Source: an uncultured Lachnospiraceae bacterium | GTDB lineage: Bacteria; Bacillota; Clostridia; Lachnospirales; Lachnospiraceae | Length of the DNA: 64,000 nucleotides | Reading direction: 5' to 3' | NCBI GenBank assembly: GCA_947566645.1 | Contig: CANOKL010000022.1 | Coordinates: 1 to 64,000 of the forward strand | In this document: piece after piece, positions 44,586-48,709 of the stretch | Layout of the letters: the number at the start of each line of letters is the position of its first letter | Numbering within the stretch: the stretch's first letter is position 1 | Program-made: the position numbers and the translations under genes | Notes under the pieces: generated by a model | What the model was told of the DNA's origin: nothing | Seen by the model: the letters and a program-made list of their open reading frames with translations, nothing else | Database searches by the model: none

Positions 44586-44622
44586 TAAAAAGGCCCCCTG
44601 TCTCATTTGAGACAAAGGGTCC
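44586..44622 (-). terminator. Rho-independent terminator of the Spo0A-domain gene
   Basis: Read on the minus strand: GGACCCTTTGTCTC, loop AAAT, GAGACAGGGGGCC, then five T. It starts about 20 bases after the gene's stop. Confidence 0.85.
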
Positions 44623-44643: not shown

Positions 44644-44994
44644 TTAATTCCGGGAGATTTCATTTTCTTTTCGGTTAAGATGACCTACCAGAATATCAAA
44701 AAACTCACCAGAGGTCGGTTTATCATGGAGAGGATGAAGAGCGATCTTCTGGAGAAAGCTCCGGTTGCCTCGGTTCCAGCATATGTTGACAACTGTACGG
44801 ATATTCCGCTCGACACTGCTGCTTGTTGCATGAAATTCCTTGGCAATCTGAGGATAGAGCAATTTGCTTATGGCCAGAAGATAATCTTCATTGCTCATGC
44901 AAAGTCTGATCCCATAGTTCAAATATTGATAGCCACGGTATGTTGCCCCTATTCCAAGAGAACGGATAAGGGATTCGATCTTTAAATCATACAT
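44644..44994 (-). CDS. Stand-alone Spo0A C-terminal DNA-binding domain protein
   Basis: 116 residues that match only the C-terminal DNA-binding domain of Spo0A, the master regulator of sporulation: GATYRGYQYLNYGI near residue 16, LLYPQIAKEFHATSSSVERNIRTVV near 45 (the recognition helix region) and PTSGEFFDILVGHL near 92. The receiver domain of true Spo0A is absent, so it cannot be controlled by phosphorylation in the usual way. AGGAGA precedes the ATG, and a minus-strand TATAAT stands at 45051-45056. Two 0A-box-like sites lie upstream at 45103-45121. Likely a DNA-binding protein that competes with or supplements Spo0A (inference). Divergent from the VanRS-like pair. Confidence 0.88.
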   Translation of the reverse strand: MYDLKIESLIRSLGIGATYRGYQYLNYGIRLCMSNEDYLLAISKLLYPQIAKEFHATSSSVERNIRTVVNICWNRGNRSFLQKIALHPLHDKPTSGEFFDILVGHLNRKENEISRN

Positions 44995-45102
44995 GTATGT
45001 TTTCTCCTATTCACTTCTGTAAAATAAAGAGAAGAATAGACCATAAGTACATTATAGTCTAAATATGCAGAAAAGAATAAATTTAGACACAAACAGGCTT
45101 TA

Positions 45103-45121
45103 TTCGACATTGTACGACACA
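45103..45121. promoter_or_regulatory. Two tandem 0A-box-like sites
   Basis: TTCGACATT (45103-45111) and TACGACACA (45113-45121) resemble the reverse of the Spo0A box TTTGTCGAA and are spaced by one helical turn. They lie between the divergent Spo0A-domain gene and response-regulator gene, so they could serve autoregulation or link the pair to sporulation control. Confidence 0.5.
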
Positions 45122-45180
45122 ATATGCCGGGCAGTTCCAGGCGACTGTTAAGGAAATATTAAGAAAATCAGCAAGGGGAC

Positions 45181-45209
45181 TTAAAATTTCTCTGATATTC
45201 TTGTATAGT
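45181..45209 (+). promoter_or_regulatory. Probable promoter of the VanRS-like operon
   Basis: TTAAAA (weak -35) and TATAGT (45204-45209) at 17-bp spacing. The start site lies just before the GGGAGGTGA ribosome site, so the leader is short. Confidence 0.45.
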
Positions 45210-45227
45210 ATAAGGGAGGTGATTGAA

Positions 45228-45943: not shown

Positions 45944-48709
45944 ATGAATCAAAAGTGGTACAGGGCCGGTATTACCAAGGCGATACTGATTATCACGGCG
46001 CATATTATGGTTGTGGTAATGTCGGTGTGTTATATGCATATTGCACTTTCTCCTGCCGTCCGCGAAGAGGTGTGCGATGGTGATCCGGCAGAGGAGTATA
46101 AGGACAGCAGTGACTTTGCCAGCCGGATGCGTACCTACAGCGCGCGTGCAGTGGGAGAGATCAGCGCAGGAAAGCTGTTTGAGACGGACGGGAAATATGA
46201 TCCGGATAAGCTGGTAGATGTGGAGCTTTACTACAATACCGGGATGCTGGAAGAAGATGAAAGCCCTGTCCAGGTAAATGTTCTGGACGCTGATGGGGAC
46301 GGCAGTATCAGCGGGGAGACAGATGACAGCGGTAAGATAGAAGCAGAGGAGCAGACCGGTGAGGAGACAGATGACAGTAATGCGGTGAAAGCAGAGGAAA
46401 TGGACGTTGATGAAGCAGAAGACAGCAGCGTGAAGCATAAGGGAAGAAGGCTTCTATACCGGCTCGGGGATCTTCTTACATGGTATGAGGATAATAATGC
46501 AGAGCAGAGTGCTGCGGAGCAGATTGTGGTCTGCAAGAGAACAGATGATACGTTCCGGTATTATGAGATCTCAGACTTTTATGAACTGATTAAGAGTGAG
46601 GAGCTCCGGTTTATAGCAGCAGATGATGACACAGGCCTTACGGAGCAGAATATCCTGCAGGATATGGAGTATGGATACGGGATGCCAGAGGGCATCTTCC
46701 GGGGAATCCAGGATCAGGAGGGAAAGCTTCTGTATTCAGACTGCTGGCTGTATGACGGGAAATATGCCCTGGAACAGTATAAGCCTGTGGGCGCGGAGAG
46801 CATACTTGAGATTGCCAATGAGGAGCCGGAATGGAATGGACAGCTGAATGAGATGTATACCATGCTGGATATCACCATTGACGGTCTTGGGGACATGTAT
46901 GCTACTTATCAGAATTATGGAGACGGCCTGTCGGAAGGAGATACGAATTTCAGCTATATCTATGTAGATATAAGAAATAAGCGTGTATATACGAATAAGA
47001 AGGAATATGAAGCCTATGCCAGCGTCCAGACGAGCCTGGAGGATATAAAAAAGACTGGAAATTATGCGGTTGTCCGGCCGAAGCTTGCAGATTTTGATTC
47101 GAATATGAATCTGGAGGCTGAGGACTGGCGGGATGTGATCAAATATACAGGCCCGGTGTCAGAGGACTTTCTATTTGCCGCGGCGGTGGATACCTCCTAC
47201 CCGGTTCAGGACGAATTCTACAGAGAGAACAGCCTGTATGAGAAGTGGGGCGTGGGAGTGGAAAAGACGATTGCCTGGGCTGTTGCGGCAGCGTTTGTCT
47301 TTCTTGTATGTGCCCTGTGGCTGGCGGTAGTGGCGGGGAGAAGCTGTGGGGATGAGGAACTCCATCTGAACGGCTTTGACCGTTGGAAGACAGAGCTTGC
47401 AGCAGCAGTCGTTATCGCAGGATGGGCGGCGCTTGCATTTGCCGGGGGCATCGCAGCGGATCTGATTCTGCCGGTGAGCGTCGTCTCGCAGATGACAGAG
47501 GACGGGCTCATACAGCAGACCACATATCTGGGAGGGACGGAATCCATATTGGAAATTGCCTGGTTCTCCCTTATTGCAGGATGGACGTGCACCATGTTCC
47601 TGACAGGATTCTTAAGTCTGGTCAGGAGGCTGAAGGCGAAGACAGTATGGGAAAACAGCATTTTAAGGAGCGGATGTCTCTTCGTGGAGCTGATGTTCAG
47701 GAACCTGAACAGTGTCCTTAAGACCATAATCCTGTTCGGCGTTTTTATGCTTGCACAGTTGTTTGTCTATATTGAAAGCGGAGGGGCAATAAGATTCTGG
47801 CTTGTTCTGGTTATACTTGCCGGGGACATAGCAGCATTCGTCTGGCTGTGCTTCAAGGCAGTTGGAAGATGCAGGATAAAACAGGGAATCCAGCACATTG
47901 CCGGAGGCGAGGTACAGTATACCATCTCCCTTGACGGACTGTCCGGTGAGCAGAAGGAAACAGCCCAGCTACTGAACAGAATCAGTGAAGGACTGGATGC
48001 CGCGCTTGCAGTGAATATGAAAAATGAACGGCTGAAAACAGATCTGATCACAAATGTTTCCCATGATATTAAGACGCCTCTGACGTCAATCATCAATTAC
48101 GTGGAACTGCTGAAGCAGGAACAATTCGAAGATCCAAAGCTGAAGCGCTACATCGAGGTTCTGGAGCAGAAATCCCAGCGCCTGAAAACACTGACCGAAG
48201 ATGTAGTGGAGGCCTCCAAGGTCAGCTCCGGGAATATAACACTGGAATATATGGACCTCAATTTTGCAGAGATGCTGCAGCAGACAAGCGGAGAATTCGA
48301 AGAAAAATTTAAGGCACGCGGCCTCCAGGAGATTCTGACGCTGACCGGTGAAGGGGCAGTGATCCGCGCAGACGGACGGCGCACCTGGCGCATCCTGGAA
48401 AATATCTACAACAATGCAGCAAAATACGCAATGGAAGGCACAAGAATCTACGCAGACCTCACAGTACAAGAACTGGAAGTAAGCTTCAGCCTCAAAAACG
48501 TATCCGAGCAGCCGCTTAACATCTCCGCAGATGAACTGACAGAACGATTCATCCGGGGAGACATATCAAGAAGCACGGAAGGGAGCGGACTTGGACTATC
48601 AATCGCTAAAACGCTGACAGAAATGCAGGGCGGGAAATTCCAGCTATATCTGGATGGGGATCTGTTTAAGGTAATGATAAGCTTTCCGAGAGTATTGGGG
48701 ACGGGGTAA
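45944..48709 (+). CDS. Large membrane sensor histidine kinase (partner of the VanR-type regulator)
   Basis: 921 residues. One membrane helix near residues 10-35, a long extracytoplasmic region (about 40-440) with an acidic Glu/Asp/Ser-rich insert, then about five closely packed helices (445-655), a short linker, HisKA with NVSHDIKTPLTS, N-box NIYNNAAKYAM and GSGLGLSIAK. The unusually large sensor and multi-helix part distinguish it from ordinary VanS. Start at ATG 45944 after GGAGGGA. The final residues LGTG and the TAA stop come from a dispersed hairpin repeat. Signal not predictable. Confidence 0.9.
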   Translation: MNQKWYRAGITKAILIITAHIMVVVMSVCYMHIALSPAVREEVCDGDPAEEYKDSSDFASRMRTYSARAVGEISAGKLFETDGKYDPDKLVDVELYYNTGMLEEDESPVQVNVLDADGDGSISGETDDSGKIEAEEQTGEETDDSNAVKAEEMDVDEAEDSSVKHKGRRLLYRLGDLLTWYEDNNAEQSAAEQIVVCKRTDDTFRYYEISDFYELIKSEELRFIAADDDTGLTEQNILQDMEYGYGMPEGIFRGIQDQEGKLLYSDCWLYDGKYALEQYKPVGAESILEIANEEPEWNGQLNEMYTMLDITIDGLGDMYATYQNYGDGLSEGDTNFSYIYVDIRNKRVYTNKKEYEAYASVQTSLEDIKKTGNYAVVRPKLADFDSNMNLEAEDWRDVIKYTGPVSEDFLFAAAVDTSYPVQDEFYRENSLYEKWGVGVEKTIAWAVAAAFVFLVCALWLAVVAGRSCGDEELHLNGFDRWKTELAAAVVIAGWAALAFAGGIAADLILPVSVVSQMTEDGLIQQTTYLGGTESILEIAWFSLIAGWTCTMFLTGFLSLVRRLKAKTVWENSILRSGCLFVELMFRNLNSVLKTIILFGVFMLAQLFVYIESGGAIRFWLVLVILAGDIAAFVWLCFKAVGRCRIKQGIQHIAGGEVQYTISLDGLSGEQKETAQLLNRISEGLDAALAVNMKNERLKTDLITNVSHDIKTPLTSIINYVELLKQEQFEDPKLKRYIEVLEQKSQRLKTLTEDVVEASKVSSGNITLEYMDLNFAEMLQQTSGEFEEKFKARGLQEILTLTGEGAVIRADGRRTWRILENIYNNAAKYAMEGTRIYADLTVQELEVSFSLKNVSEQPLNISADELTERFIRGDISRSTEGSGLGLSIAKTLTEMQGGKFQLYLDGDLFKVMISFPRVLGTG

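Follow-up and report, generated by a model that had tools for sequence, protein, structure and literature searches.

A receiver-less Spo0A DNA-binding-domain protein of Lachnospiraceae, encoded behind phased 0A boxes, as a candidate modulator of the Spo0A regulon

The stretch of DNA analyzed here (the window) is 64,000 nt long and comes from an uncultured Lachnospiraceae bacterium. On its minus strand is an ORF (44644-44994, ATG at 44994) for a 116 aa protein consisting of a Spo0A DNA-binding (effector) domain, flanked on one side by a transglutaminase gene and on the other by divergently transcribed genes for a VanRS-like pair. The features are, in order of position:

44594..44619, minus strand: intrinsic terminator 3' of the spo0A_C gene (z -5.25)
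44644..44994, minus strand: receiver-less Spo0A_C protein, 116 aa (Pfam and predicted fold)
45004..45008, minus strand: AGGAG ribosome-binding site of the spo0A_C gene (read from sequence)
45051..45056, minus strand: TATAAT, a putative -10 hexamer for sigma-A, 53 bp past where the 7/7 box starts, conserved in 6/6 genus genomes
45083..45089, minus strand: 0A-like box TGTCTAA (consensus match, 6/7), 33 bp before TATAAT and 20 bp gene-ward of the tandem
45103..45109, minus strand: 0A box TGTCGAA (consensus match, 7/7 letters)
45113..45119, minus strand: 0A-like box TGTCGTA (consensus match, 6/7), spaced 10 bp from TGTCGAA
45228..45923, plus strand: VanR-like response regulator, the divergent neighbour
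45944..48709, plus strand: VanS-like histidine kinase of 921 aa, paired with the VanR-like regulator

The ribosome-binding site and the terminator (44619-44594) suggest that spo0A_C is transcribed as a single gene. Spo0A_C (PF08769) is the sole Pfam family found in the protein; it scores 111.1 bits (cut-off 25, E 3e-32), matches the whole profile (1-104 of 104) and spans residues 6-106, and no Pfam match to a receiver domain was obtained. The equivalog model for full-length Spo0A (TIGR02875) gives 86.1 bits against the 200 required and aligns to the effector part alone, so the protein is a Spo0A_C protein by domain and fold but not a Spo0A by the equivalog test. The protein's solved relatives, the effector domains of Spo0A, are also the best fold matches of an AlphaFold2 model built on 27 relatives (pLDDT 94.5, pTM 0.88): 1lq1 superposes at Z 18.3 with an rmsd of 1.7 across 109 residues and 1fc3 at Z 17.4, the next match being at Z 6.1. 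The initial annotation, which had recognized nothing but the Spo0A DNA-binding domain in this protein, is thus confirmed. It had also asked for a full-length Spo0A elsewhere in the genome, and one is present on contig C9 (receiver 81.7 bits, Spo0A_C 155.3 bits), adjoining a glycogen-synthase-like gene. Three genes in this genome (4.29 Mb, 92% complete) encode a Spo0A_C domain: the full-length gene, the window copy, and one on contig C70 (L039:7707-8030, 107 aa), whose surroundings, with AAA ATPase genes alongside, look phage-like.

When 299 genomes of the family, one per genus, were searched with a profile made from the receiver-less proteins, 199 of these were matched at E<=1e-8, mostly through full-length Spo0A. 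A frame shorter than 200 aa with a match of at least 99 bits was found in at least 25 of the 299 genomes among the matches listed, the genome of the window included. A full-length Spo0A frame is present in 30 of 32 genomes searched and is partial in the other two (G153 and G161), presumably because of contig ends; spoIIGA was found in 30/30 genomes tested. Some genomes carry several copies, the extreme being G114 with nine Spo0A_C matches, two of which are near-identical and arranged in tandem (L107, L108, L093). In a tree of 57 domains, a branch with support of 100/99 separates the 35 receiver-less proteins from all 21 full-length or B. subtilis Spo0A domains; the split is compatible with a single origin of the receiver-less clade, the root not having been inferred. 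The dN/dS ratio of the receiver-less gene is 0.04-0.21 for genus pairs with sensible dS. The window gene is best explained as a paralogue of the DNA-binding half of Spo0A that has been passed down vertically. The genus also has a second receiver-less clade (B-type; L046:7011-7334, L047:6401-6739 and L048:6848-7186) with H in place of R214; in G003 and in G005 the copy adjoins an HPr-like gene, and two of the three have tandem boxes of 11/14 letters.

Seventeen proteins closest to the window copy (A-type) were compared with 20 full-length Spo0A domains, using B. subtilis numbering. V212, E213, R214 and R217 are kept in 17/17 A-type proteins, and the window protein shares the helix core V212-E213-R214-I216-R217, along with the fold and 33-36% sequence identity, with the Spo0A proteins of B. 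subtilis and C. difficile (1lq1, 1fc3). Unlike those, it has no receiver, and R211, H218, E221, F236 with its loop, residues 243-245 and D258 are replaced or deleted. Most of these changes are general: R211 is S and H218 is T in every A-type protein, F236 is A or S in 17/17, residues 243-245 are deleted in 17/17, and D258 is lost in 17/17, while full-length Spo0A has D (18/20) or E (2/20) at that position. The initial annotation had named a recognition helix altered at its base-contacting residues as evidence against a role at Spo0A targets; the outcome is mixed, with E213, R214 and R217 retained and R211 and H218 replaced. Since the helix is partly changed, the protein is not a simple copy of Spo0A, and the R211S and H218T replacements could alter the choice of sites or weaken binding. 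Regions 227-240 and 257-258 of B. subtilis Spo0A, which we take to be its activation surfaces, are both rewritten. The window copy reads V257-G258, and in B. subtilis the A257V substitution abolishes sporulation while abrB repression is retained (PMC9195935). V257 alone is weak evidence, since full-length Spo0A itself varies at this position (A in 11, S in 7 and V in 2 of 20).

On the gene's own strand the two boxes form a tandem, TGTCGTA-CAA-TGTCGAA (45119-45103), that matches 13/14 consensus letters, with both boxes in the direction of the gene; on the plus strand they read TTCGACA (45103-45109) and TACGACA (45113-45119). They are 10 bp apart, as expected from the earlier description of 0A-box-like sites separated by one helical turn. 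At one mismatch or fewer, this is the single tandem 0A box in the window (0.01 expected; seen in 1/100 shuffles), and at two or fewer mismatches the window is unremarkable (33/100 shuffles). The whole genome (4.3 Mb) holds two tandem sites at one mismatch or fewer; the other, at C6:107988, lies 3' of a gene for a histidine kinase and has no evident target. Tandem boxes are not enriched genome-wide, there being 12 sites at two or fewer mismatches versus 70 for a reversed control of different composition. A sigma-70 scan did not find a promoter for spo0A_C, the -35 element being missing. A -10 hexamer that lacks a good -35 but has boxes upstream is consistent with activation. The gene for SpoIIGA, a classical Spo0A target, has in the same genome a TGTCGAA box 60 bp before a TATAAT. 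No box was found in the 250 bp upstream of spoIIAA, so the presence of boxes does not list all Spo0A targets.

The other five genus members all have the gene (74-95% identity), and the tandem recurs in 5/5 of them at 12/14 letters, so that 6/6 genus members carry it 125-140 bp before the start codon. It has been kept despite synonymous sites that are near saturation (dS >1.2 in most pairs; 0.155 for G000-G002). Box statistics over a wider set used the 250 bp upstream of each gene, with start positions set by a motif rule, for 27 receiver-less genes (the 30 loci L049-L078, less L053, which has 29 bp of upstream sequence, and L075 and L077, which are full-length Spo0A). A tandem of at least 12/14 letters was found upstream of 12/27 receiver-less genes and 6/165 neighbour genes, and one of at least 11/14 letters upstream of 18/27 and 14/165, respectively (Mann-Whitney p 1.2e-11 for the scores). 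All six control genes at the higher threshold are GH25 or vanR genes that use the same divergent intergenic region. The best match lies on the sense strand in 26 of the 27 genes, and nine of the 27 upstream regions score 10/14 or less.

When 11 promoters with a TATAAT-like hexamer are anchored on it (three shifted by one base; L052, L060, L063 and L065 excluded), conserved columns appear with G at -62, -52, -32 and -49 and C at -70, -60, -50, -40 and -30. These repeat every 10 bp and correspond to box letters G2, C4 and G5, giving a phased array before the TATAAT. They are also the bases that Spo0A contacts, and mutating them cut binding about 10-fold (PMC3485338). The information content of the phased columns, without shifting, was reached by 0/2000 shuffles, a result that is supportive rather than independent because the 11 promoters were partly picked for their boxes. 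Five loci (L052, L054, L060, L062 and L063) are out of register with the array. With 0A boxes at a conserved promoter position, the receiver-less gene very probably belongs to the Spo0A regulon.

The initial annotation placed the sites upstream of both this gene and the divergent VanRS-like operon. They do lie between the two, but the promoter to which they belong appears to be that of spo0A_C rather than that of vanRS. A divergent vanR-like gene is found in 6/6 genus members and in 11 of 16 loci examined outside the genus, where the orthologues are 77-90% identical; among the five loci that lack it, G153 stops at a contig end, and the copies in G147, G224, G170 and G246 are away from vanR. 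In three genus members (G001, G003 and, by likeness, G005) a GH25-LysM lysozyme gene separates spo0A_C from vanR. Because the boxes remain with spo0A_C where the lysozyme gene intervenes, they were assigned to its promoter. As vanRS control sites they were rejected as far as their main role is concerned, given that in G003 and G005 they accompany spo0A_C and none occur in the roughly 150 bp before vanR. Across several genera (L091, L042, L040) the lysozyme gene is found between the two, and it is absent from that position in the window. It too has 0A boxes just upstream and could be co-regulated; in G001 the tandem TGTCCAT-N3-TGTCGAA at -126 falls inside the GH25-LysM ORF, in an over-long start that precedes the domain (residue 70 onwards). 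The vanR promoter region (45155-45215, TTAAGAAA..CTTAAAA..TTCTTGTATAGTATAAG) is highly similar across the six genus genomes and may contain direct repeats for the VanR-like regulator itself.

A three-step scheme can be proposed. Phosphorylated Spo0A would bind the phased 0A boxes upstream of the TATAAT, which has no good -35, and switch the gene on, a step made likely by the promoter architecture and its conservation. The receiver-less product, having nothing to hold it off, would then likely bind 0A boxes at once, judging by its fold, the kept E213 and R214, and how the isolated domain is known to behave. Finally, the product would occupy boxes without activating, so as to damp or delay Spo0A-activated genes, its own included, and might still repress. 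This last step is the weakest of the three and rests on the rewriting of the loop and helix at 227-240 and of 257-258, regions known to be needed for activation. That the product is a DNA-binding modulator of some kind is probable. That a Spo0A-controlled paralogue serves as a phosphorylation-independent and most likely negative modulator of the Spo0A regulon is our preferred reading, with a probability of roughly 0.48; competition or damping is the most economical account, joining as it does a conserved DNA-binding core, an altered activation surface and a promoter with Spo0A boxes. The gene thus probably restrains or tunes the Spo0A program from within, a negative sign being suggested by these sequence features. 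The earlier proposal of a phosphorylation-independent modulator of Spo0A targets accordingly survives as the best reading, now with conservation across genera behind it, while the autoregulated copy it offered as an alternative is possible in so far as the product may act on its own gene, the same boxes being equally open to Spo0A itself.

The main rival holds that the protein is induced by Spo0A but has a shifted specificity, and acts mainly on the adjacent envelope genes (GH25-LysM, VanRS) or on some other regulon. The changes at R211 and H218 in 17/17 A-type proteins would suit such a shift, as would the divergent vanR-like gene (11/16 loci outside the genus and 6/6 within it) and the lysozyme gene inserted at several loci, and it would link the onset of sporulation to the cell wall. 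However, the boxes travel with spo0A_C and not with vanR, and four copies (G147, G224, G170, G246) lie away from vanR; we consider it less likely than the preferred reading. Still less probable is positive feed-forward, by which the product would bind 0A boxes alongside Spo0A and aid it, or itself activate, to give a sharper, phosphate-independent decision. The boxes are in an activator position upstream of the -10, and the isolated Spo0A DNA-binding domain binds its targets without phosphorylation (PMC3485338), but all 17 A-type proteins lack F236 and D258, which hardly vary in full-length Spo0A. The protein used in that work is the same piece, natural in the present case; it was cut from full-length Spo0A with its residues intact, whereas the window protein has lost several invariant ones.

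Origin as a phage-borne spo0A fragment domesticated by the host was also considered. Homologues of spo0A in the human gut virome align to the effector domain only and were proposed to work independently of the usual host signals (PMC10294663), and in this the window protein resembles them; it is matched by 13 phage records at 28-42% identity and by PHROG 24603 at 115 bits, and the same genome has a second receiver-less copy, C70, beside phage-like AAA genes. Unlike the gut-phage genes, however, the window gene is chromosomal, syntenic with VanRS across genera and in 6/6 genus members, and has phased 0A boxes in its promoter. Only two relatives were found on viral contigs, each lying no more than 1.1 kb from where its contig begins, and in the domain tree the C70 copy groups, on a long branch, with full-length Spo0A and not with the window clade. 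A phage source for the window gene is accordingly quite improbable. The C70 copy itself fits the published phage-borne receiver-less Spo0A. The least credible reading is that the gene is decaying or has lost its function and that its box arose by chance. The protein is short and a single 7-letter box is common, but conservation already contradicts it: dN/dS is low, the gene is kept across genera, the predicted fold is confident, and 0.01 tandem sites were expected.

In the open-access literature searched, receiver-less Spo0A was found described for phages only, and a chromosomal, syntenic, box-driven clade was not found. The sporulation decision of gut Lachnospiraceae is poorly known, with Spo0A activity assumed to be set by phosphorylation, and a conserved, probably Spo0A-driven receiver-less protein would add a regulatory layer that kinases cannot reach. 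A bolder and more tentative proposal is that Lachnospiraceae evolved, perhaps once, a dedicated anti-Spo0A that is induced by Spo0A, blind to phosphorylation and devoid of the activation surface; if so, sporulation initiation has a timer or brake beyond the reach of kinases. Genome annotation also calls for caution, as counting a Spo0A_C match as 'Spo0A present' miscalls such copies.

A separate observation concerns the main Spo0A of other genera, and may be more surprising than the window gene. Ten genomes were picked since their top frames were 180-188 aa (L112-L121, from G008, G027, G250, G116, G225, G227, G136, G303, G115 and G036). In 10/10 of these genera the main Spo0A is 180-188 aa long, with a conserved stub (DNERVYKILGDLL..KEFQIMITVP) replacing the receiver, followed by an intact canonical effector domain; four of the stub proteins were tested by domain search and have Spo0A_C and no receiver. 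A strong receiver-bearing Spo0A was not seen in the ten genomes, which have weak frames of 262-278 aa (G250 and G116) and a 244 aa frame (G008). A glycogen-synthase-like gene adjoins the stub Spo0A in nine of the ten genera, and spoIIGA is present in all ten genomes, in two pieces in G303.
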